In this document: positions 3-20,900 of the stretch, in pieces
How the letters are laid out: every line of letters begins with the position of its first letter
How positions within the stretch are numbered: position 1 is the first letter of the stretch
Source: Branchiostoma floridae
Taxonomy: Eukaryota; Chordata; Leptocardii; Amphioxiformes; Branchiostomatidae
DNA length: 64,000 nt
Assembly: GCF_000003815.2 (NCBI RefSeq)
Contig: NC_049992.1
Location: 5,512,570-5,576,569 of the forward strand
Direction of reading: 5' to 3'
Notes under the pieces: model-generated
Database searches by the model: none
Told to the model about the DNA's origin: nothing
Seen by the model: the letters and a program-made list of their open reading frames with translations, nothing else
Made by a program: the position numbers and the translations under genes

Positions 3-3000
3 CTACAGATCTTCATCATGTACATGTCTTTTGACTTCCAAAGGTTTATCCATATTCACGATGAGGTGATAGTAAAAGTTCATGACTCTCTCGTAATCCC
101 TCACAGAGATCCTCTCGTTCAGCCCGTGGAATCTCGGGAGATCGGACGGTGTCATGACACATGGGTTGAACCGGTAGATGGCGCTGCTCAGGTTCCAGTA
201 GTGCCGTGTGTCCGTGTTGGCAATCATGAAGGTGGGGGTCACCAGGGCATCTGGGTAGATCTGTGTGTGTACAACATCATGTCGATACTATTACAAATCT
301 TATTAAATCGTATTAGTCGTACTATCCTTTTACTACTTTTAGACTAGAGTAGACACTTGTGATATTGTTTTTACACTGTATGAATCTCTCATGTTACCTG
401 CAATTAGCACACGGACAAGAATTTGCAATAAAACTTTATCATCAAAATTTGACCTTGACCTTTGCCCCCCCCCCCCACACACACCTACCTACATAACAAA
501 TGGTATTGCAATTTATCCAGAGGTTCAAAAGTTATGCATGAAACACGAACACACACACACGCAAAAGTACACACACACACACATAAAAAAACCGCTTTAA
601 TGGTTGTAACAACGAAAGACAAATGAAGCAATAAAGAAACAGTATATACTAGAAATTGAGAAATGGTATATTGTTCTTCTTAAACACACATGTGCTTACA
701 TGTACCCACCTGCTGAATAGTCTCCTGAAGCAACATATATGTAGGAGAATCCTTCCCGTAAGGTGAGGTCGGAGCAGGTTCCAGACTGTTTATAACATTA
801 ATCTTAACCCTGGGATCATTGATGACCTTTAGGTCATGTTCCATCACTTCCTCCACACTTGACATTGGATGTATCCGGTGGTCTATGACGGCCACGGCCT
901 CCGGTGAGATGACGTTGTCCTTGACCCCCGCGTTGAAACGCGTCACGGCGGTCGTCGTCCGAGCGAACGCGTTGGTTTGTGGTTTTCGTGCGTACACCCA
1001 GGCGACCAATGGAGAGAAGAGCCACAGGTTAGCGGTCAAGATCCGGTAAGGTAGGGTCATCTCCGTGGCAACGTACTCCAACGTGCGCATCTCCGGACCC
1101 GTGCCGAACAAGTTAGGGTGTGGGTTGTCCTCAAGCTTACTGATGGCTCTGGATAGGATTCCTGAAATACAAAATGAAAGTGGCACAATAACCTAGCAAT
1201 CAGGTCTAACGGCTTGACCTGGATATCTAGAAGAACAAGTTTACTAAAGATAATGCCTTAGAAGAGTCAAACCAACTGAAATGATTAGTCCATGGGCTAG
1301 TTCCCCAAAAATGATAGATAGTTTTATTTATTTATTTATTGAAACTTCACAGATCAGTTACAATCTGAGGGGAGCCGGCAACAGAAATCCAGTTTCTCTA
1401 CGAGGCCGACTCCCCAGAAGATCTACAAGCAATGTAATAAAAACCTATAATCGAAACCTACATATAAATACAATAAAAGATTGATAACAAGTTAACAAGT
1501 TCAATAACGGTTGGGAATAAAATAGCTAGTGAATCATGAAAGTAAGCAATGAGAGCAGCGGCAAATAGAAGTCCAGGTACAAAAATCATCAGCTGAGAAG
1601 GTGTGATCTGTGCGGGATGTATAGTGATTGACCAGTAATTTCCTAACAGATGGAATGGTAAGGTTTGAGTACATATGTTGTCGGATTGTTGCAGGTAAAG
1701 TGTTCCAGATAAGTACAATGCGGCTGAAGTAAGAGAAAGTAAATGTTTCGGTTTTACATACACGGACAACAAGTTGGAAAGGGTCAGTTGAACGGAGTTG
1801 TCTATGTGATAATGATACTTGTACAAACCGATGAATATCAATGGAGTATAGGCCACGAAAACACTTAAAGAGAAACAATATGTCAAAAAGTTCACGCCTA
1901 TAACAAAGAGGTAACAACTTAGTGGTTACAAGTCTGTCCCTATATAACAAATCATAGCTGTTACAGATGTATTTGGTGGCTCTCCGTTGAACTCCCTCAA
2001 CTTTACGTAAAAGAAATCTCGTGTGAGGGGACCACACCTGTGAGCAATAATCTAAATGCGGTTCTCACCGATAGCTGACTCGGATCTAGGCATGGAGGCG
2101 TGGCCGCCTTCTTCTTTCACCTCTAGGCGCAGCTGCAAGAATCCTTTCTCAGCAACACTGACGAGGGCAACAAGTTTGTCTACACCTGAAGACAAAATTG
2201 GACACTTGTGGGGACTCTTCAATCATCATCATCACCATATCTCTCTACAGCACAATGCCTACAATATTTCTGCTAGATTACCTTTTTCTGTCTGTAACGA
2301 CCATGACACGTACTATGAACAATATGTGCGACCAAATTGTTTAAGCATGAAAGTTCATCTGTGTTCACTTGGTATTGTGGGAAAACTTAAGTCCCATTTA
2401 AACTTGGTGTTGGTTAAGTAAAGTTGAGTTTTCCCACAAAGAAATTGTTTTAAATCATTCTTGATGTCAAATACATGTATATCTACATGTAAGATATCGC
2501 ACATAAGATGCTCACCGGGCATAAGACCATCTCCTACCGGAGTTCCTTCGTCCAGGATGAATGCTATTTTCTCTCCCCTCTGAGTCAACACGTCACTGAT
2601 AACCTTTGCCCCGAAATGACCACCTATCTCCTCATCGTGTCCGAAGGCGAGGTACAAAGTACGTTTGGGCTCATGTCCTCTCGATAGGAGAAACTCCACC
2701 GCCTCTAGACTCCCCATTACGTTATGCTTGTCGTCTAGCGTCCCTCTCCCATAGATGTACCCGTCTCGGACCTGTCCCGAAAATGGCGGTGCCTCCCAGT
2801 CAGTTTCCTGTGTGATGGGCACCACGTCTAGGTGAGACGCCAACATGTAGGGTTCTAGCGAGCCGTCCGACCCTTCCACTCGGTACAACAAGCTGTAGTT
2901 CCCGACCACTTCCCTCCGGACCAACGGTGAGCTGTGGATCGTCGGGAAACCGTCCTGGATAAACCGGACGAACTTGAGTAACTCCTGTGGTGTCCCCACG

Positions 3001-3230
3001 CCGCGTTCATAAGACACGGTTTGGAACTGAATGGCTGAGCTGAAACGGGCTAGTCTTTCCTCATCGGCAGGGATGAAGTCAGGGTCGGTGGTCTTACACT
3101 CCGGTGGGGAGGTTTGGTAGGACGGGAAGGTCAAAGTTGTAATAACAACAATCATCAGAACCAAGGCCAGCAACACAGTCAGAAGCTTCAGGGCGGCGAA
3201 TAGAGTACGCTGGATTCCCACTGTCGCCAT
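3..3230 (-). CDS. PM20D1: PM20D1-like M20 peptidase, N-fatty-acyl-amino acid synthase/hydrolase (4 exons, complete)
   Basis: Exons on the minus strand: 3230-2516, 2185-2069, 1161-710, 260-3; all junctions are GT/AG and phases match, giving 513 aa, close to the roughly 500 aa usual for the family. Residues 11-34 are a hydrophobic signal peptide or membrane anchor. The M20 metal site is visible: ASHLDVV (H133, D135), GRGTLDDKHN (D166/D167), HDEEIGG (E200/E201), DEG (D227/E228), and a late His in LPRFHGLNE. Known members condense fatty acids with amino acids, and hydrolyse the products, outside the cell. The start was set at MATVGIQR (3230) because upstream in-frame Met at 3266 would only add a polar stretch before the hydrophobic segment. 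The stop codon lies at 3-5, so no 3' UTR is seen. Intron 2 (1162-2068) is largely a retroelement. Confidence 0.9.
466..590. repeat. C-run followed by (CA)n microsatellites
   Basis: An 11-bp C run is followed by ACAC tracts, with further CA tracts to about 587. It lies in PM20D1 intron 3. Confidence 0.8.
1316..2058 (-). mobile_element. 5'-truncated non-LTR retrotransposon (reverse transcriptase C-terminus) in PM20D1 intron 2
   Basis: Reading from 2058 leftward gives the typical RT C-terminal pattern HLDYCSQVWSP, then KVEGVQRRATKYI, YRDRL, CYRRELFDILFLFK, and FSRIVLIWNTLP, as in CR1/L2-like elements. The 3' end carries a simple A/T-rich tail (plus strand tttatttatttatttatt at about 1320-1340). 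It lies in the same orientation as PM20D1, and its recognisable coding part begins about 9 bp inside the exon 2 donor. It is 5' truncated and is not a host gene. Confidence 0.8.
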
Positions 3231-5874
3231 GTTGCTTAAACTGTCTCGCCGTAAATACACACACAAACACGCCAGACTGTTTATTTTTTGATTGCTTTTT
3301 TGTCTGTCTTATTCAAACAACCGTGGGACCGATGTACGTATCATGTTTCTTCTAAGCCCTCTGCTCTATTAGTGCAATCAACGGTCACGATTCTGAACTC
3401 AGTTAGTGTTTTTGGCTATTTTTTTCTGTCCATTTCCTTTTATTTGACAAACCGACAATAGCGAAACCCATACAGTCCTACATTTTCACTATTACCAAGA
3501 AGCGAGAAGAAGCCGAACTTTTGTGTTAGACTAGATTTGTGACACTTTTATGTATGTAACGCTCCTATTTTTTGGAAAAAAAAATAAAAATAAAATTACC
3601 ACTCAGCAAATTTTCACCATTAACGAAGCCATTCACCAACTTTCTGGTGTAGCAAACATAAAAACTGACACTACTTTTGTAATTTTCAATGAACAGGTGC
3701 TGTTACTGTACAGTAATAGTGTTTTTGTACTTTTTTCAAGCTGAGAACTTTTTATTCTTTATGTTTTGGATTAGCCTTTACCTTTACCCCAACCATTTTA
3801 CAAGTTTTAGTTTTATTTTTATTTCGCCCTCTCGCTCCATATTTTTTATGAAAAAATCCGTGAACCAAGAAATTAAATTGGTGTGGCCTTATAGAGGGAT
3901 TGAAGACATTATAAAAGGCTCTCAAAGTACTGTATAATTATGTACAACTAAGTGAAAATCTAGGCCAAGTAAATCATTAAGGGTACAGTTAAACTTAGCG
4001 GCCACCTTTGCATGGCGACCACCTGGCTATTGCGGTCACTTTTTGTAGGTCCCTTGGATTTTTTCCATTGACCTAAGCATTAACAAATAGTCTACAATAA
4101 AAAAGAAATTACACTACACAAAACATGCAAGATTTTTCAAGCAAAATTTACTATTCGGATGCAAAAACAAAAGCTTCAGGCATTCTTATTATTTCCAAAT
4201 ACAGGATAATTGTACATGTACCTCTATCTAAGTACAACTAATATACACTGTACTTTCTTCATCATTTTCTATATTTTTACATAGACTTTATGTATTGTAC
4301 TAGACAAGGCGCAAACAACAATACTTTACTGTTAGAAATGAATTGAATGAGCCATGGGAAGACATCGTACGTCCTTTTGATTGTATGAAGTTGTAGTAAA
4401 CCTGGTCACATGTCAGTTGCATGGAACATGAAGTAGTGCATTTTTCTTACTGCCTTTGCAGTAGTCAGAATTGAATATTGCACCACTATTTCATTTACTC
4501 TTCAACTTCAGCAGGGCCGGACAAGTTTTCTCAAGTTCACTTGTCCTATCGGGCAAGCACATAAAAAATCTACTTGCCCGAACCAATTTTTCACTTGCCC
4601 AAAATTCAAATGTCACCGTTACTCGTATATGTATTTTCACTTCCAGCAATTGAATTCTCTGTTGACCATTGCTTGATGTTATGACAGTAAAAAGTAACAA
4701 GTAAATCAAAATTGAGGTCAATCAATGGAAAATCTTACTTGCCCCATCGGGCAAGTGGTGTAGGTCATGCACTTGCCCGATCAGCACTTTCACTTGCCCT
4801 GGACAATAGGGCTAGTGGACTTGTCCAACCCTGTTCAGACATTTGAGAATAGGTACTTGTAAAATATCATTTCTTGTGTATATTGCAGATCTTAAGTATC
4901 TTTTTCTTGACATGTCTTAGATTTCACCTCCAGAGACAAACACAGCATTACTGCCACCTTGTTGACGGAGAAACTTTCAATAAAACTTTTGCACAATGGA
5001 AGACAGTCACTGAAAACGTCAGTTGTTGAGAAGGGAGAATACAGTGTTCTGGGCCATATACTCTGGACAAATATCTGCTCAACTCATGTCTTGTCTTGTC
5101 AAGTCTTAGAGTAACTGTTGTGTACATGTGTTTAGTTCCAGCTTAATTACTGTGAACGGCTAATAATTTCATCTGTTTGAATACTTGATCCTAAAAATTC
5201 AAATCTTCTGATCCTTTTTAAACTTTTAAAGTTATTGCTAAGGTCACATGTCCAAAGTTTCTAACAAAAAGTGCAATTGTGGAGGAGACGTCCAAACATG
5301 TGGAATGTCTGTAATTGTTCTGTGATAGACACTTTTCTTTTTCGCTTCTCTTTCGAAACATCCTGGTCGGTGCCTATTTTGGAAATGTGACCTTAAAGCA
5401 TTACAATGCGGTCACAACGCGGTCACATATGTATGACTTTGATGCTTCAAGCAGGTTGTGACAGACCCAACCACCGACATGGATCCAAAACAGCATTTTG
5501 TGCACCAAGAGAGTTGAACTTTCTGGAGACATACATTTTTGTCCTCCAAATTGCCTGAAGCTAGCGATCATATGACGAATGTGACCGCAACCTTAGACTC
5601 TGTATGTGACTGCAACCTTAGAGGACAAGTTTGACAACATCTAAGAGAGAAAGAGACATCAATATATGCTCCCTTCTGTGGGACTGAGTGTAGGCTTTGC
5701 GGGAGGGGGGCTGCCAGGAGACTCCGGTGTCTGAGAGAAAGAGACATCACTACTTGCTCCCTCCTGTGGGACTGGGTGTAGGCTTTGCGGGAGGGGGGCA
5801 ACCTACTGTATGTGACCGCAACCTTAGAGGACAAGTATGACAGGAGAGAAAGAGATCTAAGAGAGACAGAGACA
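3231..5874. other. Intergenic region between PM20D1 and ATAD3
   Basis: AT-rich sequence with no exon I can support. It contains a partial sequence resembling the mariner-like MITE at 46642 (about 3990-4060), a hAT-like element (4512-4833), and the 3'-end minisatellite of ATAD3 (from about 5585). PM20D1 and ATAD3 run head to tail on the same strand, so this must hold the PM20D1 promoter and the ATAD3 3' UTR; I could not mark either exactly. Confidence 0.6.
4512..4833. mobile_element. Non-autonomous hAT-like element, ACTTGCCC-repeat family
   Basis: Imperfect terminal inverted repeats CAGGGCCGGACAAGT and ACTTGTCCAACCCTG are flanked by the direct repeat TTCAG (4507-4511 and 4834-4838). The body has many copies of ACTTGCCC/GGGCAAGT. 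A second copy lies at 17885-18272. No coding capacity. Confidence 0.7.
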
Positions 5875-5975
5875 TCACTGCTTGCTCCCTCCTGTGGGAC
5901 TGGGTGTAGGCTTTGCGGGAGGGGGGCTGCCTGGAGACTTTGCGGGAGGGGGGCTGCCTGGAGACTCGGGTGTCT
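5585..5975 (-). repeat. Minisatellite built from the ATAD3 3' coding end and stop codon
   Basis: Three diverged units of about 110-140 bp each repeat the sequence encoding the Pro/Ser-rich ATAD3 C-terminus ([10 protein letters not shown] then stop) plus the following UTR (GAGACATCA and GAGGACAAGT motifs). Inside the coding exon a 27-bp block is also duplicated in frame, giving SPGSPPPAK twice. Confidence 0.8.
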
Positions 5976-8900: not shown

Positions 8901-11900
8901 TATCTCGCAACAAGAATTGCATTAGCTATTCATAAAGATGAAACAATTTCCAAATCAGGCTAATAAATTGTATGTGAATATATAAGTAGCCATGACGTCA
9001 TCAAAACGTTGGAGAGGCCTTCCGAGACCGCAGCAAAACGCTAACGTGAGTTTAGGAGAGCGCCAGCTCAAAACGTCACACGAGAAGTCGCAATAGATAA
9101 TATTTAGGATCATTTTGTTATATCGCTGTGGCTATTGACACACTGAGTGTGCCTATAGCCTAAACAGGCTATTGACACACCGAGATTCCAGCCAGCCAAT
9201 CAGAGCTTGTAACATGCCTTTCCCGACATTATTTTGCCAGGCTCTCGTCTCATTACAAACTTTTCACATAAGTAACAGTTGTTTAGACATTTTTCGGAGG
9301 ATTAGACATTAGAATCTTTGAATCTTGGAATGAACGGACATATTCAAGTTATGCCTTAGATTTGGATACCTGTTAATACAATTTGGTACTGTGAATGTTA
9401 GCATGGCGTAGTGGTTAGCGTGATTAGTCGCCACACTGCCGACCCCGGTTCGAACCCGCCTAGGGAAAGTTTTTTTTTTTCAATTGTCCTTTTACCTTTT
9501 TATAACATCCATTTGATATAAGAATATTTTCGTCATGCGACCAGAACCATGAAAACCCACCTTTGGGACTTTTTGGTCTGCATTTTCAAGAGTGCATGTT
9601 TAGGTAACAGTTACGTTTATTTTTTTCAGCCGCAGAATCCACCCGCTACGTTCTTATTTTGGACGGTACACTTATTATTTCTTTTAAATTGGACCAGGGA
9701 CCCCTGAAATAATAAAATGTGGGGTTTTCCAAGGATAAAAGCTCCTTGGGTTTTCTAACCATAATTCTGCGGTATTTTTGCTCAAAATTCACGCCGTCGA
9801 AGCATATATTTCCGCGCCGCTATGTCATCCAAACATATCGGTTGATCTCGCTATGACGCTACAAAGTTCTTTCAAAATAATGAAAGTAAAACAACAACTA
9901 TAACTTCGCTTCACTTGTGATATCAGTTTTGAGGCCGCAAATTCTCCCTAACGGCAGGAATTCGTCGGCAAACACAGCTGAAAACGTGTTCCAACATGGT
10001 CACATGCGGTGTTTGCATGGTACTAAATATAGTTAGCTCATTTGCATACTTGTGACTGGCTACATGCGGCCTATACCGTAAACACGTGAAAAAGATCGTA
10101 TTTTGGGTTGATGATGGGCACAGAATGCCATTTGTATTTTCAGAGTGTTGCCTTTCAAATATAATCGTAAGATTTTCTCATTTTCGTGGTTTCTAGTGTC
10201 AAAATTTTAATAATACGTATTTAGCAGACAAGCAAATTATCCTTACTGCACGCCAAGGCACAGCATTTTGCCTTGCCGGGCTTGAAGTGCCGACCTACCT
10301 TTTCCTGACGATATTCCTACCACGCGGCAAGGCACAGCTTTTTTAAAAAGATTTCTTGTTTAAGCTGGGTGCACCAGTGCATCTAATCCCAAAAATGAAT
10401 TTCGAGCCCTGCATGGTTTAGTGCGCTGTTTACTCTTACTCAAAAACATTCAGATATACATGATTGTATTATGTTGACCAGCCCCTCCAGCTATGTCCTA
10501 CCACTTGCTATAAGATGTAATCGAACACCAAGTGTGTCTGATACTTTTATAGTGACAGTGGTCTGGTCCGTGTCACTGACTTTATTTCATTGGAGAAGAA
10601 GAAGAAAGAAAAAGAAGGAATGTGGACAAAAAAAAAACAGTGAAGGGAAGTGGAGTGGCTCTGATCTCCGCCATGACAGACAGATTAGGACTTCACGTAG
10701 TCGAAAAAAGAGACAAGAGTTGTCATTTATGCCTAGAGCTCTGAAGTTGTACAATACGAAAACTTATTGAATGTGCTATACTGCGTGAAACTGACTCTTA
10801 TACAACTGTTTTAAATAGCTTTTAACTACTTGTAATCTCGTTTTTGCCTTTTTAACATTCACTTTGTTCTGTAACAGTTAAATAGAATTAATCATATGTA
10901 TTAAATAGTAGATGATTGCTTTTACCTGTACTGTAATACTATTTAAATCCTTGTATGAACCTCGCAATTCAGCCTTTCTGGCTGCGATGAGTTTCGTTTT
11001 CAATAAACCTTGAACCTTGAAAACATAACGACACTGACCTTCCCCTGCCCCCCGCGGCGGGCTCCAGGACGTACTTGTCGAAGTACAGCCTGACGAGCCG
11101 CTCGCGCTCCTCCAGACCTAGAAGACAGAAGGAAAATGTCCAGACTTTCCATGATGTACAAAATAACCAATAAACTGGTATACCAACTGATAAGTATCTA
11201 ATACCAGCTCAAAAAAGAACAAGAAACAGTCATGCCTTCAAATACCAGAGTTACCAACCTAGGATTGATGTGTTCAAAAATTCGTACTTTCCCAGAACTA
11301 TCGTAGAGTGGAATTTGTTATCACCAAGTACAGTAGGGGCATCTTCTCTGGGTAGTTTTAAAAAACTCTTGCAGATAGATGTGCAAAAGTTAGGTGTAAT
11401 GAGTTGTTCGGTGTAATATAACAAGCTGCTGCCGCACGGCGTGCCTGCGAAGCTGGTGTGTTACGCCGAACAGTGGTTATACCGGCTATATAGATACAGA
11501 TACAGACCTGGCAGGTCAAACAGCACGATCTCGTCCAGACGGTCGTTGATGGCCCAGTCCAGCTGCTCGGGCTGGTTACTGGCCAGCACTAGCATGAACC
11601 TGACAAAAAAACAGCATAATTCTTTATGTTGCAACTTTAAACTATATCCGTACACAAAGAAAACGCTTACCAACTATCTAGTGCTCTTTTTATTCTGAAA
11701 TGACCCAAAGTCTACAAATGTATGTCACACATCTGGACTGGAAGTAGCCTCCACTTACTTTCTTGACTGTTCACCAGTTCGGTACAGGAATGCATTAAGT
11801 GTGCTACGGAGGTCTTCACTAATCTTTTCCTGTGGGGAACGAAAAAAGAGAACATATTTCAAGATGGAGACAAAAAAAGCAATAATAAGAATTTATCATG

Positions 11901-14900
11901 AGCAGTATAAGGTACATTAGTCTAGTTGAGCTAGCATACAATCCACTATTGGCTGTATTTCTATTTCTCCAATACTCAGTACTATCACCCATGTTGACAT
12001 AACACCAAGCATTCAGTCTCTTTCACAGAAGGCATTCAAATCTAACTTACTTGCTGTATTATGGCAAGCACCTTTAACTAGTTTATCATGTCCTAAGACT
12101 AGAGTGAAATACTGTTGGACTTGAGCTTCATCATTGTTGTACTCACTGTAGCTCTTTTCCTGAGGAATGCATCAGATTCATCCACAAAAAGCAGAAGCCT
12201 GTATGGAAAGTAATAGTATCAATATAATAAGATTATAGAAGTGAATTGTGAATATACAGAGCTACAATGTACTAAACCAGCTAAAGCTACTATTAATATA
12301 TTATAACAGCTAAAACTAGAGATTTACTGTCTACAATGTACAATGTACTATTATATTATAACAGCTAAAACTAAAGATTTAGTGTGTCTACAATGTACTA
12401 TTGTATTATAACAGCTAAAACTAAAGATTTAGTGTGTCTACAATGTAATTATATTATAACAGCTAAAACTAGAGATTTAGTGTGTCTACAATGTACTATT
12501 ATATTATAACAGCTAAAACTAGAGATTTAGTGTGTCTACAATGTACAATTATATCATAACAGCTAAAACTAGAGATTTAGTGTGTCTACAATGTACTACT
12601 ATTAAAAAGTATTATATTATAACAGCTGAAACTAGAGATTTAGTGTGTCTACAATGTACTATTAAAAAGTATTATATTATAACAGCTAAAACGAGAGATT
12701 TAGTGTGTCCACAATGTACCATACCAGCTAAAGCTAGAGGTTCAGTGTTGGGACCACTTTGAATGGAAGGACTACAAGGAAGTTCATGACAAAGAGAAAC
12801 TGAATCTTTCAAAGCAAAAAGCAGTATACAGTATACTCTCCATTACATTTGTAATCTGTATGTTGTAATGATGTAAAACTTTGGATTCAGAACCAAGGAC
12901 GGGACATGGTATTCGATACTTTATGGTAGATCTAGCAACAAATAAATCTATCTTTTGCATGAGTCACTCACCCTCTTCTGCTGGTGCCTGCCCAGTCGAA
13001 CACTTTGTGCATGGCTGTAACCCCCTCCCTCCCCATGGGGGCTACGTCCCCTCCAGTCATAATGGCATAGTCCATCCCAGAATGCAATGCTAAACTCTGC
13101 AACAAAAAAGTTGTTTTTCATTCAGGAGCAACTGCAGCAATGTTTGATAAAGATAGACAAGACAACAGAAACTACAAAATCTAGCTTGCTGTTGGTAAAA
13201 AATTCATATGTGGACAAATTACACCATATCTGACAGCAGAAAATTAAAATATGTTGTTGGGACATTTTGAAAATGGTGATATTCATTGATGTCGAACATG
13301 TAGATAAGTTATGACACTTAGTATGTATTACACATGAAGGGATTCTTTTTTGTTACATAACATGTACTGTTCATCCATGCAGATGATAGATTTTCCTTTA
13401 GAACAATTTAATCATCCTTTTACACATTTTAACTACATCTACTGCCTTTTAACATGCAAACATGTAATCTAAGCCAGTACTAAGTCTAATTCTTGAAGTT
13501 CTGTCTTACCTTTGCAAACATGGTCTTGCCAGTACCCGGGGGTCCGTGGAACAGGATATTTCTGTACACGCCTCGGTTCGCCTTGGTGTTCCTAGTTGCT
13601 ATGGCAATGTCTCGGACACGGGATTCCAAGGAAGGCTTGGGGGTTCAGAAAAAAATTATAATGTTTTCCCAGGTAAACATATTGTTTATGCAGGTGTGTT
13701 ATTTTTTCTTCTTCTGTCTGGGCTTAAAAGTGCATTAAGATATTGTAAATACCATACTTTTTATTCATTTTCAATCCCAAGCAATACTATAGGGCAAGAC
13801 TGACTAAAGGCCAAATGGGAAAACATTCTACATTTTTGCAAATATGTTGCCTTTCTAGTTTCTTTTATTTTCTCAATACCTACTGATATTATTATGGTAC
13901 GTGCACAAAGTTAATTATTTACTTTCTTATATACATCAAAGAGCATGAAAAACAAGTGCCAAATATAAAATTAATCTGAAAAATTTTCCCTGCACTATTT
14001 GATATGAAAGACAATTCAAAAACCTCACATTGAAGAGTATTCCCTCCAGTGCATCTTCTGGCTTGGTCATCAGTCTCTTGACTGTCTGAAAATTGAATTA
14101 TACGTTGTCAGTATCTTTGCATTTAAATGCAATCTTTATGAGCAGGCAAATCAAATCAAAATGTGTATCTTCACTACGTGCAGGGCAATCACTTTTGAAA
14201 AATAATCTTTTAAACATTTATCATAACTAGCTTTGCATTTAATATCACAAATAACAACAGCAATTATATCAGTAATAGGGGTGGGTACGGGTACAGAATT
14301 TTCAGGTCCGGTCCAGGTATAGAAGATTAGGTCCAGGTTCGAACCTGGACCTAACTGTCTATAAAACTTGTGAATGGACAATATGTAAAATAATGGTTGA
14401 TTATGCTAAAAAGGAACCTGTTTGGTGGAGTATCTGACTCCACTTGGTGTATTAACATCACATCTTCATGTAAACAACACTAACTGTCTGTAAGTTTTGA
14501 CAGTAGAAATTTGGTGACACTATAATACTAGTACTTTGCTCCTGTTATTTTTGTGGACCTGTAAGTCCTGAAACGTACACTGTATTAATGCCTGCCGATA
14601 CAATCTGACCATATTCTAATTGGTCCAAAATCTGGTCCCCTGATATCTTTCAGGTCAGTTCTTTTTACCGTTCCAACGGGATAGAAAAAAACTCTTTGTA
14701 CCGGTAAACCAACCCCTAATCAGTAATGTACTGTACATGATGATTTTCTAAAAATGGACATAACAAATTTTCTCAGGTTATTTCTTGTGGCTTGTCTTAC
14801 CTTAACGGGGTGTCTAATTCCCTCGAAGACACTTATTCTGGAAGTCTCCCTGACGAGTGCCGGTTTACCTAATCTGGCCTCGATGTAGCGTGCTGCGACT

Positions 14901-17900
14901 CCGGTCGCACCTCTGGCGGTATAGACACCTACTGCTAGTAACGTCAGACCAGCAACCTGAGGAGGTCAAGAGGGCTTTTAGCTAGGATTTTATCATAGGG
15001 AGTCCAAATTTATTGGTGAATTGCCGTAAGTGACTATTGTAGGGGGGTCCGGGGGCATCCACTTTCCATGGTGCAGAGTTTTTGATGATTTTAAGTTAAA
15101 ATAGTGCATTCTAAGGTATCCTAAGAGGTAAAAATACTGTTACAGAGGTCATAGTAGAAGACTGTGACCACAGATGACCTGGTAGCATCCCTGGTCAATC
15201 AGAATTTCATGCTTGTCAGACTTTTCTCCCCAGTGTAAGGGCGTCCAGGGGCATCAAATTTCTTGTTATTCCAAGAAAAGTGACGTGTTGACGCATGCCT
15301 GGCTAAAAGCCTGAGGTCAAGTTCAGAAAATATAGCCACTGCGCTCGAAATTCATTTTTGGGATTAGGTGCACTGGTGCACCCAGCTAAAAAAAATTGGG
15401 TGCACAAAAAACTTTTTGGGTGCACCACTTAAATTTAAGTATTCTAATGTCAAAAAACCTAATAACAAAACTTAGTTACAAGCTATCAAATTCTTAAACA
15501 AGTAACATGACAGACATTTTTATTATCTTTTTAACACTTAGATGTCAAGAATATGATGTATACTAGTATACTTGATATCTTTCCATACATAAACCTAAGA
15601 AAACATTTGGGTGCACCCTGTGCACCCACTGAAAAAAATTGGGTGCACAGTTCCAATTTTGGGTGCACCTGGGTGCACATGCACCCAGTATTTCGAGCCC
15701 TGATAGCACAGCATTCAGTTTTGAACAAATATATTGGAAGGCACCAATATCAAAGACAGGCCCCTAGTGTGGCTTCTACTGATGCCAGCATAATTATATG
15801 TGTGAAACAACTACATATAGAGGGGCAAGAGCAACAGAAAGAAACAATATCCTGACTCCCGGGATTCGAACCCGGGTAGCCTGATCTTGTCCCAACACGC
15901 AAACCACAACACCAAAAGCTCAGAGCTGTTGGCCTGGTCAGTTTGGCCTACTGTTGAACCCCACTGTTACACGTTCGTGCAAGATGACCAGGTTCATAAA
16001 ATTGTTTCACAATCTACAATATTGTCGTTTGAAAGTGTTCAAGGTGGCTTGGCATGGAAGTACACGAAATGTTAACACTTGATGCATGACAATGATGACT
16101 GAGTACACTGTACTTATAGTGCAAAAATTTATAACATCATCAGCTTGTGATTAAAAGCAGGGCTCGAAATACTGGGTGCATGTGCACCCAGGTGCACCCA
16201 AAATTGGAACTGTGCACCCAATTATTTTCTGTGGGTGCACAGGGTGCACCCAATATTTTCATAGGCTTATGTATGTAAAGATATGAAAGTATACTAGTAT
16301 ACATCATATTCTTGACATCTAAGTGTTAGAAAGATAATAAAAATGCCTGTCATGGTACTTGATGAAAACATATATTAACTAAGTTTTGTTATCAGGTTTT
16401 TCTGACATTCTACTTAAATTTAAGACTTAGTGGTGCACCCAAAATTTTTTTGGTGCACCCAATTTTTTAAGCTGGGTGCACCAGTGCACTTAATCCCCAA
16501 AATGAATTTCGAGCCCTGAAAAGAGATGAACCAATGCAGCATGTAGTAATCCTGAGGTATATATACTTCAGATATTAAGGTATAAAAACTCACTGTGGCT
16601 GAAACTTTGTCCCAATCTGCAATAAAAGCCTTGAAACCATCCCCCAATACTGCACCTGCAGTTCTGGAGTGAATCACAAGGGGGCATTGTCAGTACAACC
16701 TGTCACCAATACCAACACAATTACTGCCTTAAAATCACTTTGTAGCAAGATGTATCATCGGTATGTTGTACTTTAATGCAATAGTGAAGGCATTCAGTAG
16801 TTATGCTAGATAGATCTTGCTCACACAGCACACTACTTGTTTGTAAAAATGGTCTTGTGCTACCATGCTAAGGCTAAGTTTGATACAGAAACAACAATTT
16901 GTGCCAAGATGAGAGTTTCTAGTACAACTTACTTGATCCCCTCCATGACCGTACTTCTGTGTTCGGAGGCCTTCAGTTCCACAACAAAATACTTTGGTAA
17001 AATGTGCTGTGCTACCATGGTCAGGCTAAGTTTGATACAAGAAATAACCCCACAGTATGTTTTTTTCCTTCCATTTTCACTACAAGATGAGAGTTTTCCA
17101 GCACAACTTACTTGATCCCCTCCATGACCGTAGTTCTGTGGTAAAATGTGCTGTGCTACCATGGTCAGGCTAAGTTTGATACAAGAAATAACCCCACAGT
17201 ATGTTTATTTTCTTCCATTTTCACAACAAGATGAGAGTTTTTAGCACAACTTACTTGATCCCCTCCATGACCGTAGTTCTGTGTTCGGAGGCCTTGAGTC
17301 TGATCTGCTCCAGGTTCAGGTCTTGGTTCTCACGGTCGGCTTTCGCCTTCGCTGTCGTCTCCGCTTCTATTCTCTTCATGTCGTTCTGCAGACGGAGCTG
17401 TGCCTCGTATTCCATCGTAGCTGAAGGAAATAATAATAATAAGTTTATTGCGAATCCTTGTTCTTCAGTCAAAGGGGCATTGTTTGTTTCATTTGCGGAT
17501 CCGAAATTAACTTTAACCTCCTCAAAATCTTTGTTCAAAGTACAAGACTCATAGACCATCGTCCTCAAACAAATATGCAAATTTTCTTTAAGCCAATCTT
17601 TTGCTCTTTAATCAGATTTTGGATACCCAATAGATGGAAAAAAAGTTTCTGTGGCCTGTTTGATATGTAGCAAATCCCAAGGATATCAGATCAATCATCT
17701 GATAAGTTAAACACTTATCTAATAGGAGTAGTCAGTGGGTTGGTATGGTGTCAGTCTCTTTGGAGCTTACTTGTGAGTACACCCACTTTCGGTTGCTAGA
17801 AAGCTTTCAGTTGCTCTCTCAAAGTCAAACATGCCTGTCTAAGATTGTTGCCCCATCAACTTTTGCTTGCCAGAAAGGTGACTGCAGGGTTAAACAAGTT

Positions 17901-20900
17901 TTCAAAAATTCACTTGTCCTATCAGGTAAGTACATAAAAAATTTACTTGCCCGAACCAAATTTTCACTTGCACGAAATTTAATTATATTTTTCTATGTAT
18001 TTTCACTTTGTTTACCTCGCTGACGAGAGAAAGTTTTTGAGTTTTGATGTGGCCCTATCATCCAAAATCGATGTTTCTACTGGCTTGAAAATGACATGGT
18101 CAATATAGGTAGGCATTCAGCCCCATGTGCTGTCACACTCAGTGGTAATTTGAGCGGGTCACAACTGGAAATTCTTACTTGCCCGTCGGGCAAGTGGGGA
18201 AGCACTTCTGCTTGCCCGAACAGCACTTTTACTTGCCCGGAACAATTGGGCTAATGGACTTGTTTATCCCTGGTGACTGGCACCCAAGGTACAGAATAGG
18301 AAGTTGAAACACACCAAGGCCAAAGAAACCTAATCTCCATGCAGATCCTACGATGGAATAAAATAGTACTAAACTGGCAAAGGAGTGTAGTCAGCTAAGA
18401 GGTGTGCATTTTCCTTGTAGTGTGTTTGGCAAATGTACACCTCTTGGCTGACTATACTCCTTGGCCAGTTTGGTTACAACTTATGCCATCATAGGATCTC
18501 CTTGGAGATTACTCCTTGACCAGCTTTGACCACGGTAGCGAAACACACTAAGCCGGCTTCACTCCTCTGCCAGCTTTTGATACTATCACATGCTACCATA
18601 GGATCTGCTTGCATTGGAGATTATAAGAAACCCTGCTGGGCTCCAGGGCTGTAACAAAGACAAAGAGTGAAAGTACATCACACCTTTCCTCATGGCCTCC
18701 TGTTTCTTGACCGACTCCTCCTGTCTGGCCAGCTGGTCTTCCTGCATCCTCTTCTGCTGAATAAGCTGATCGTCGTACCGCCTACGCGCCAACTGGTCCT
18801 GGTACTGTGCTCGCTGTGAAGGAGAAGGGCAAAATAGTAGATAAACTAGAGTTCAGGGACCTCATACCTCCATGAAATATTTATTGCTTTTTTTGTGGAT
18901 GGTATGTATGTTTATAGTCGGTTGTATTTGAGAGTAATGGTTATAAATGTTATGGGAAAGTAGTGGTGTATTTACACAGAGGATGTCCATCTGATTAGTA
19001 ATTATTAAAATGTGACACTTAATTGTGGAATGTGCGTTTAATAGGTCGGTGGCATATGGTAGCGTGGTGTTCCTTAAGCTTGATGTTTGGCATTTAAACT
19101 GTCTAAGGTTGTCAGCATTATTGAGGTTCGACTATGTGCCTCAGAGCGGTGTGGTGGGAGGAAGTTGGGAAACTCAAAAAGAAGGGATGTGGCCAATTTT
19201 AGTCAGATGGTGATTTGATTTTCCAACAATATGTCATAACATCAGCTGTTCACACAGTACAAAAACGAGATGCACACTTTCCTCTGACAGCCCTACACCA
19301 ACTGTAAGATGAATACTTGGCGCCAACCCCGTCTGCTAAAAAACAAGCACCATTGGCTACAAAACAGACAACTAACAACTGTCCCTTATCGTAACAAAAT
19401 CTGTATCGCCCATAAAACTTCTGACACCCAACCCAGATGAATATAACCTCCATTCCATGACATTTCATGGAGGTAACTATCATCAGTACCATTCGATTAG
19501 CTGACAGTGACAGCCTGAATTTTGTCTGCACAGAGGACCAATGCTGTCTGATGTTTTACTGATTTCAGCTGGGCAAAAGTCAATAAGAAGAACTGCTCCA
19601 TGATCATTTTCATCATCATCTTTGTCATCTCTATATAATGTTGAAATTAGGGGTGTGTACCAGTACAGATAATTCAGATCCAGGTCCAGTCCAGGTGCAG
19701 AGGATCAGGTCCCAGTCCAGACCTAAAGCTGGACCTTACTGTTTGTGAATGGGCAATACTCAAAACAATAGTCCATTTTGCTATTAATAATAAAGGAATC
19801 TGTTTGGTGGAGTGTCCTATCTTCGTCTTAACAACACTAACTGCCTCTGTTAATTTAGACCAAATATGACTATAGCAACTTGATAGATAGAATTGACTAC
19901 TGTAAATGCAGAAATGACCACTTCACCGCGAACTTAAATCCACTGCGAACATTTTTCTATCATGATATTAGATTGCAGTCTATGGTGTTACTGCGAACTT
20001 AAGTCCACTGCGAAAAGTCCTTTTTCCCGCTACCGCGAAATTAAATCCCTGCGAACTTAAATGCATTACATTATATCAACTCTCCTCTATGCACTCGTGG
20101 TATTTGCTTGGACCAATAAACGTCAAAACATAACTGACGCCGTAGTGCCGGTATAATCTGTTCATTTTCCAATCGGCACAACATCCGGTCCACTAAATTT
20201 ATAAGGGTCCATTTTTTTCTGGAATGGCCCAACAACAAAAAAAATGGATTTTTACCGGTGTGCCAGTACTAACCCCTAGTTTGTTCAAAGATCCAATATT
20301 ATGCATCTCAGCAAATTGACTCTAAATTCTTAGGAAGTCAAACTCAAAGGAGCTTCTTGAGCAGCTGAGGACCTTGACTTGTGCCAGTTCTTACCTCCTG
20401 ATGTTGTTTGGTCTCTGCTGCCATGAGACAGTTCTTACCTCCTGATGTTGTTAAGTCTCTGCTGCCATGAGACAGTTCTTACCTCCTGATGTTGTTTGGT
20501 CTCTGCTGAGACAGTTCTTACCTCCTGATGTTGTTTAGTCTCTGCTGCCATGAGACAGTTCTTACCTCCTGATGTTGTTTGGTCTCTGCTGCCATGAGAC
20601 AGTTCTTACCTCCTGATGTTGTTTAGTCTCTGCTGAGACAGTTCTTACCACCTGATGTTGTTTAGTCTCTGCTGAGACAGTTCTTACCTCCTGNNNNNNN
20701 NNNNNNNNNNNNNNNNNNNNNNNNNNNNNNNNNNNNNNNNNNNNNNNNNNNNNNNNNNNNNNNNNNNNNNNNNNNNNNNNNNNNNNNNNNNNNAGCTGCA
20801 CTCTGTGATGCGCAATTCCTCACATGGATTAGCATGGAAAATGTTACAGTTAAAAGCTGGACACACTCAAGGAAAAAGACGAGCCTGGAGACAGCTTTGT

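Follow-up and report, generated by a model that had tools for sequence, protein, structure and literature searches.

Intron 13 of ATAD3, a mitochondrial gene of Branchiostoma floridae found in a 64,000-nt stretch of genomic DNA (the window), was very probably created by the insertion of a non-LTR retrotransposon. The intron consists of element sequence, a family with the same tail is present in the genome, the listed relatives of ATAD3 are uninterrupted at this position, and the anatomy recurs in other reading frames. The original prediction of a retrotransposon-created intron thereby gains support from the 389 element bases among the 390 of the intron and from the read-through in all 120 listed relatives (of 266 matched).

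Guided by the human protein, we reconstructed lancelet ATAD3, which has 16 exons. Exons 13 and 14 were assigned from ATAD3 protein homology and splice sites. Exon 13 (11508–11599, minus strand) ends in GACCTGCCAG, intron 13 (11118–11507, minus strand) is a phase 1 intron of 390 nt with the donor AG/GTCTGT and the acceptor CTTCTAG/, and exon 14 (11039–11117, minus strand) starts with GTCTGGAGGAG. On the minus strand, the segment 11103–11520 thus runs from GACCTGCCAG into the intron at GTCTGTATCTGTATCTATATAGCCGG, and from ATTTTCCTTCTGTCTTCTAG at its end into GTCTGGAGGAG. These coordinates, the strand, the phase and the length are those originally predicted. We tried 437 combinations of GT and AG in and near the intron: 30 leave the frame open and a single one, the 11117/11508 pair, gives the conserved ATAD3 junction protein, which fits the claim that splicing would keep one copy of the junction repeat and restore an uninterrupted frame. 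Lancelet ATAD3 proteins are uninterrupted over the exon 13/14 junction in the six of six that were read; the nearest one (P0001, 94%) comes from the annotation of a hybrid, Branchiostoma floridae x B. belcheri, followed by those of B. lanceolatum (91%) and B. belcheri (90–91%).

The donor GTCTGT had been described as weak, and it indeed has the lowest score of the 14 ATAD3 donors scored with a matrix (1.58, the others ranging from 2.8 to 6.85). Such a donor would be compatible with an insert that is inefficiently spliced and with an ATAD3 allele that is damaged. We consider this very unlikely: the joined frame is intact, the annotated lancelet proteins are contiguous over the junction, retention of the intron would bring a stop 14 residues past DLPG, and the same donor is present in the four other open-frame introns described below.

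The ATAD3 locus also carries several repeats. Exon 3, which was not recovered whole, coincides with an N run (20694–20793); this run is adjoined by a 44-bp tandem array with six exact core copies (20385–20693), inside which lie the 3′ end of exon 3 and its donor (ACAACATCAGGAG/GTAAGAAC). At 16932–17283, the end of exon 5 and its donor (GTCATGGAGGGGATCAA/GTAAGTTGT) are found three times consecutively, two of them within a 144-bp tandem unit. Intron 10 contains a minisatellite of about 50-bp units (12297–12719), and a 27-bp in-frame duplication near the C-terminus (KSPGSPPPA, 5911–5966) is not in the closest protein P0001.

The insert is a 5′-truncated non-LTR retrotransposon copy lying antisense to ATAD3 (11118–11506, plus strand), delimited by its match to genome copies and by comparison of the junctions; unambiguous element sequence starts at 11121, the first three bases of the copy being ambiguous with the host. 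It comprises what is left of the C-terminal part of the presumed reverse-transcriptase ORF, with a 4-bp deletion (11118–11416, plus strand, from tblastn with P0121–P0127), and the 3′ tail GATACAGATACAGA (11493–11506, plus strand), recognized from the (GATACA)n tails at other copies. The description of the intron as almost wholly element stood and could be sharpened, by the match to family copies, to 389 of 390 bases. Older intron sequence is absent, as predicted, with a single base that is not element.

We searched 513,431,437 bases in 431 contigs and obtained 3314 first-look candidates, 40 of which were scored; these best 40 of 3314 are the window copy and 39 other copies at 94–95%. Thirty-three of the 39 listed copies cover exactly window positions 11506–11118 (389 bases). 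On inspection, all 39 have (GATACA)n tails, and their 5′ ends differ where seen. The assignment to an antisense, 5′-truncated non-LTR element is thus confirmed by the family, the tail and the variable 5′ truncation, all found in the same genome. The reverse-transcriptase piece has 67–90% identity over the matched part to seven short environmental ORFs. No Pfam family scored above the cut-off for the element pieces, and no relative of the element turned up in scans of viral and prokaryote contigs; from sequence motifs, with Pfam giving no name, we take the enzyme to be of the CR1/L2/jockey-like type. Elsewhere in the window (1534–2064, minus strand), there is a C-terminal piece of a distantly related reverse transcriptase, with 22–24% identity to P0124 and P0126; the ORF beside it (2355–3308) presumably encodes an M20-type peptidase.

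The window copy was compared with the majority of 19 listed copies, a high-scoring and not a random set from which L024 was excluded as truncated. It differs at 14 of 389 aligned bases, in addition to the 4-bp deletion, and at nine of these 14 positions the base is unique to the window, with no second base among the other copies. The latter differ from the majority at 0–14 of 387–393 bases, and the window copy ties with the most diverged. Since the difference from the family amounts to only 14 of 389 bases, the intron gain looks recent. The copy divergence of 3.6% lies near the level of allelic divergence in lancelets, so that intron 13 could still be polymorphic.

Both junctions carry the repeat AGGTCTG. 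Its first copy (11503–11509, minus strand) provides the AG/GT donor, and its second copy (11113–11119, minus strand) provides the acceptor AG and the opening bases of exon 14. The junction repeat is 7 bp long at intron 13 versus 0–4 bp at the 12 others of the 13 measurable ATAD3 introns, and in 181 mispairings of ATAD3 donors and acceptors it is at most 5 bp. On the plus strand, the tail GATACAGATACAGA continues into the repeat CAGACCT; at the far junction, most family copies have CTTGAAGA whereas the window has CTAGAAGA. Since the CAGA of the repeat also extends the GATACA tail and its CT equals the bases of the family, the duplication may measure anything from 1 to 7 bp. The 7-bp repeat foreseen at both junctions is therefore present, but it does not count as a whole as target duplication: we gave up taking it as proof of a 7-bp duplication, part of it being attributable to element sequence.

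An exact-match script applied to 20 other copies found a 9 bp repeat in L011, a 10 bp repeat within a TA repeat in L024, repeats of 4–6 bp in six copies and none in 12 of the 20; this count is rough, as L023, scored without a repeat, shows 6 bp by eye and copies longer than the retrieved stretch leave their 5′ end unseen. A clear duplication is thus often absent at other copies, as it might be if the element fragment were filler captured in the repair of a staggered double-strand break rather than a product of reverse transcription; short repeats at recently gained Daphnia introns are interpreted in this way in a review (PMC3488318). Random filler would not, however, be anchored in the element tail, and the insert ends exactly in this tail at the junction, like the family copies, with the same tail-end junction repeated in four other introns. 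We accordingly give filler capture little credence and retain insertion by reverse transcription as the preferred reading.

The position of intron 13 was examined in relatives by using the joined exon 13 and 14 region as a query, which matched 266 proteins, 120 of which were listed and assessed. All 120 are continuous over the DLPG-EERERL position, 112 by a script rule and eight by eye, so that none of the 120 listed relatives (of 266) shows the shared intron position that would have spoken against a gain. The listed relatives are mostly short ORFs, mostly ending or diverging at the positions of lancelet introns 12 and 14. According to the script, 42 of them combine a divergent upstream flank with a frame stop at the intron 14 position, 31 have only this stop, 21 only a downstream divergence, and 13 a divergence at both flanks. 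Another 12 were scored as joined to the neighbouring exon on one side (P0164 and P0177 wrongly so by the rule), and P0226 was the sole one left unclassed. Named relatives among those listed are Mytilus galloprovincialis (P0230) and Ophiophagus hannah (P0167), and P0153 is one residue away from what we take to be the human sequence. As most of the listed ORFs end or diverge at introns 12 and 14 and all span 13, introns 12 and 14 appear to be shared, and intron 13 is not seen. Because all 120 listed relatives (of 266) read through the position, the gain of intron 13 most likely falls within the lancelet lineage.

The human gene structure adds a coarser comparison. The exact human exon border at this site was not found in papers on splice variants, so the exon count of a human ATAD3 fusion gene was used instead; this gene combines exons 1–11 (residues 1–405) from ATAD3A with exons 12–16 from ATAD3C (PMC7010973). 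The region with five exons in the fusion gene has six in the lancelet, a count that does not say which intron differs. Human exons 3 and 4 are 162 nt long combined, according to another paper (PMC10127305), in agreement with the same exon numbering.

Copies of the family do occupy existing introns near splice sites. L054 is situated 5 nt into an existing intron, behind an exon that is presumably Lon-like, and L106 is found in an existing intron, close to the splice site upstream of an exon that we take to be nitric-oxide-synthase-like. By analogy, intron 13 might be an old intron in which the element inserted later and displaced the original sequence. We regard this as very improbable: only one of the 390 bases is not element, the same repeat stands at both ends exactly on the splice sites, and the 120 listed relatives (of 266), in which introns 12 and 14 are visible, have no intron here. 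A gain by insertion of the element itself remains by far the better reading.

The same anatomy was found in further genes. The exact pattern AGGTCTGTATCTGTATCTNNATAGCCG occurs at four places in the genome and at none in a reversed control, and all four places read as introns in an open reading frame, namely ATAD3 (L031), L029, L030 and L032. The putative L029 intron has 403 nt, with element sequence up to base 400, and Pfam names no protein for it. At L030, the predicted intron has 332 nt, with element sequence up to base 329 and about 100 nt of other sequence held internally, and a Transglut_C domain spans the joined junction. The L032 intron (386 nt) would join an exon pair whose junction is spanned by Adaptin_N; the element makes up its first 313 bases, at 74% identity, and this is the weakest case, the 73 nt at its 3′ end lying outside the element. 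An extended version of the pattern, searched with at most three mismatches, gave 1735 matches, about 100 of which were listed; among those listed, AGGT stands at the junction in seven (ATAD3, L029, L030, L032, L104, L105 and L106). L105 provides a fifth candidate, an intron of 466 nt whose frame is rich in arginine and serine. In all five introns the next exon opens with GTC, which the patterns do not force, and AGGTC thus stands at both ends. At L029, L030 and L105, the acceptor AG differs from the bases of the family at this place and is probably host sequence. We infer the gain at L029, L030, L032 and L105 from this anatomy, the comparative evidence being that for ATAD3 alone.

The L029 and L105 introns contain tandem copies of the 3′ end unit of the element, as if several tail modules had been joined. 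L029 and L030 share their truncation point, beside TTTCTTGTTCTTTTT. A mobile truncated subfamily was considered as their source and found no support, the shared truncation junction with NAGGT being found at these two genome places only; the sharing fits the survival of spliceable insertions better than a special subfamily.

Among the copies read, an intron excess appears at a single host triplet of the junction. In nine copies host AGG was seen to stand immediately upstream of the antisense tail TCTGTATC, and five of the nine read as introns in open frames: ATAD3, the transglutaminase gene L030, the adaptin-domain gene L032, L029 and L105. The remaining AGG-junction copies, L104, L106, L049 and L064, were rejected as element-made introns; in L049 and L064 the tail is of a different length. 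The control consisted of 26 copies with another triplet, taken from the matches listed (L076–L103 minus L083, the L030 place, and L081, an AGGA copy that the script did not match); four of them (L084, L085, L092 and L093) have one flank in common. None of these 26 combines GT-AG ends, a junction repeat of at least 5 bp and an open joined frame; L078, L079 and L098 have 5–6 bp repeats without GT. GT is present at the donor place in 12 of the controls, the other 14 being incapable of forming this donor. Fisher's test gives p = 9e-5 for 5/7 versus 0/26, and a calculation by hand p ~0.006 for 5/9 versus 0/12 GT-bearing controls; both values are descriptive, as the classes were set after looking.

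Proximity to AGGT is not enough to make a copy an intron. None of the 39 listed copies at 94–95% could be shown to be an intron, with AGGT at most 30 nt from the tail in four of them. The pattern AGGTN{0,10}GTATCTATATAGCCGGTATAAC has 21 matches, among which ATAD3 is the single clear element-made intron; L054 is the copy in an existing intron described above, L060 is doubtful, and 18 matches lack accepted coding evidence, as judged without homology comparison, several of them having joined frames that are open by script. The idea that every copy near AGGT is an intron was rejected, ATAD3 alone having held up among the 21. Intron status is thus rare within the family and apparently tied to the AG/GTC junction. 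We hold it somewhat more probable than not that this family has given rise to introns more than once in the lancelet, a judgement lowered by the four copies that have the AGG junction and yet form no intron.

We propose that a non-LTR copy was inserted, antisense and 5′-truncated, into an AG/GTC(TG) site of an uninterrupted ATAD3 coding stretch. Insertion would probably have proceeded by target-primed reverse transcription, in which the tail would pair with the GA of the GACCT target and the target bases would end up at both ends of the insert. The donor AG/GTCTGTATCTG would then consist of the host G and the complement of the GATACA tail, the pyrimidine tract would be the antisense of the reverse-transcriptase coding region, and the second target copy would supply the acceptor AG at the opposite end. 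Splicing would remove the element together with one copy of the repeat and leave the protein unchanged. The reverse-transcription step and the actual splicing are what we infer from the sequence anatomy, as is the recent date from the divergence of the copies.

Such an origin resembles that of Introners, some of which, according to Gozashti et al. 2022 (PMC9860276), recruit splice sites from duplications, most carrying DNA-transposon signatures. In both systems, copies of one family would be spliced as introns in different genes, here as read from the sequence; donor and acceptor would come in part from a short duplicated target, and the mRNA length would be unchanged. Introners, as portrayed there, are mainly DNA-transposon-like elements with terminal inverted repeats or duplications, whereas the lancelet source is LINE-type with variable 5′ truncation, and most copies of the lancelet family are not introns, five introns being seen. 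The proto-splice-site or transposon-insertion model (Dibb, as cited in PMC3488318) likewise envisages insertion into AG/G(T) in coding sequence and regeneration of AG/GT at both ends. The lancelet case differs in identifying the inserted sequence and its supply of splice signals. In plants, introns reportedly arose from a single SINE or Ds element, in rice catalase and maize shrunken-2. What they would share with ATAD3 is a single mobile-element copy spliced as an intron; the lancelet case differs in that the source is a LINE-type family, that more than one gene of the same animal genome is concerned and that there is comparative evidence of gain at ATAD3. Mechanisms of intron gain are termed poorly understood in a review (PMC3488318), and human and mammalian intron gains are the subject of two further papers (PMC12124190 and PMC3257199). 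Titles and abstract openings searched, largely outside the subscription literature, contain no report of a lancelet or LINE-made intron.

The way in which animals gain introns is an open question, with few clear cases in which the source sequence is known. The ATAD3 case displays the source element and how it is oriented, the splice signals that it brings and the target, together with a gain most likely on the lancelet lineage and an anatomy that recurs in other genes. We lean, by a modest degree, towards regarding this LINE-type family as an introner, in which an antisense GATACA-primed copy at an exonic AGGTC can be an intron at once, with gain that would be recent or ongoing and some introns, that of ATAD3 included, maybe polymorphic. 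Repeated intron making by a LINE-type family, if true, would be a variant form of the Introner concept. Should the copies be as young as they appear, alleles with and without the intron could be set side by side in living animals, and the early life of an intron would become directly testable.
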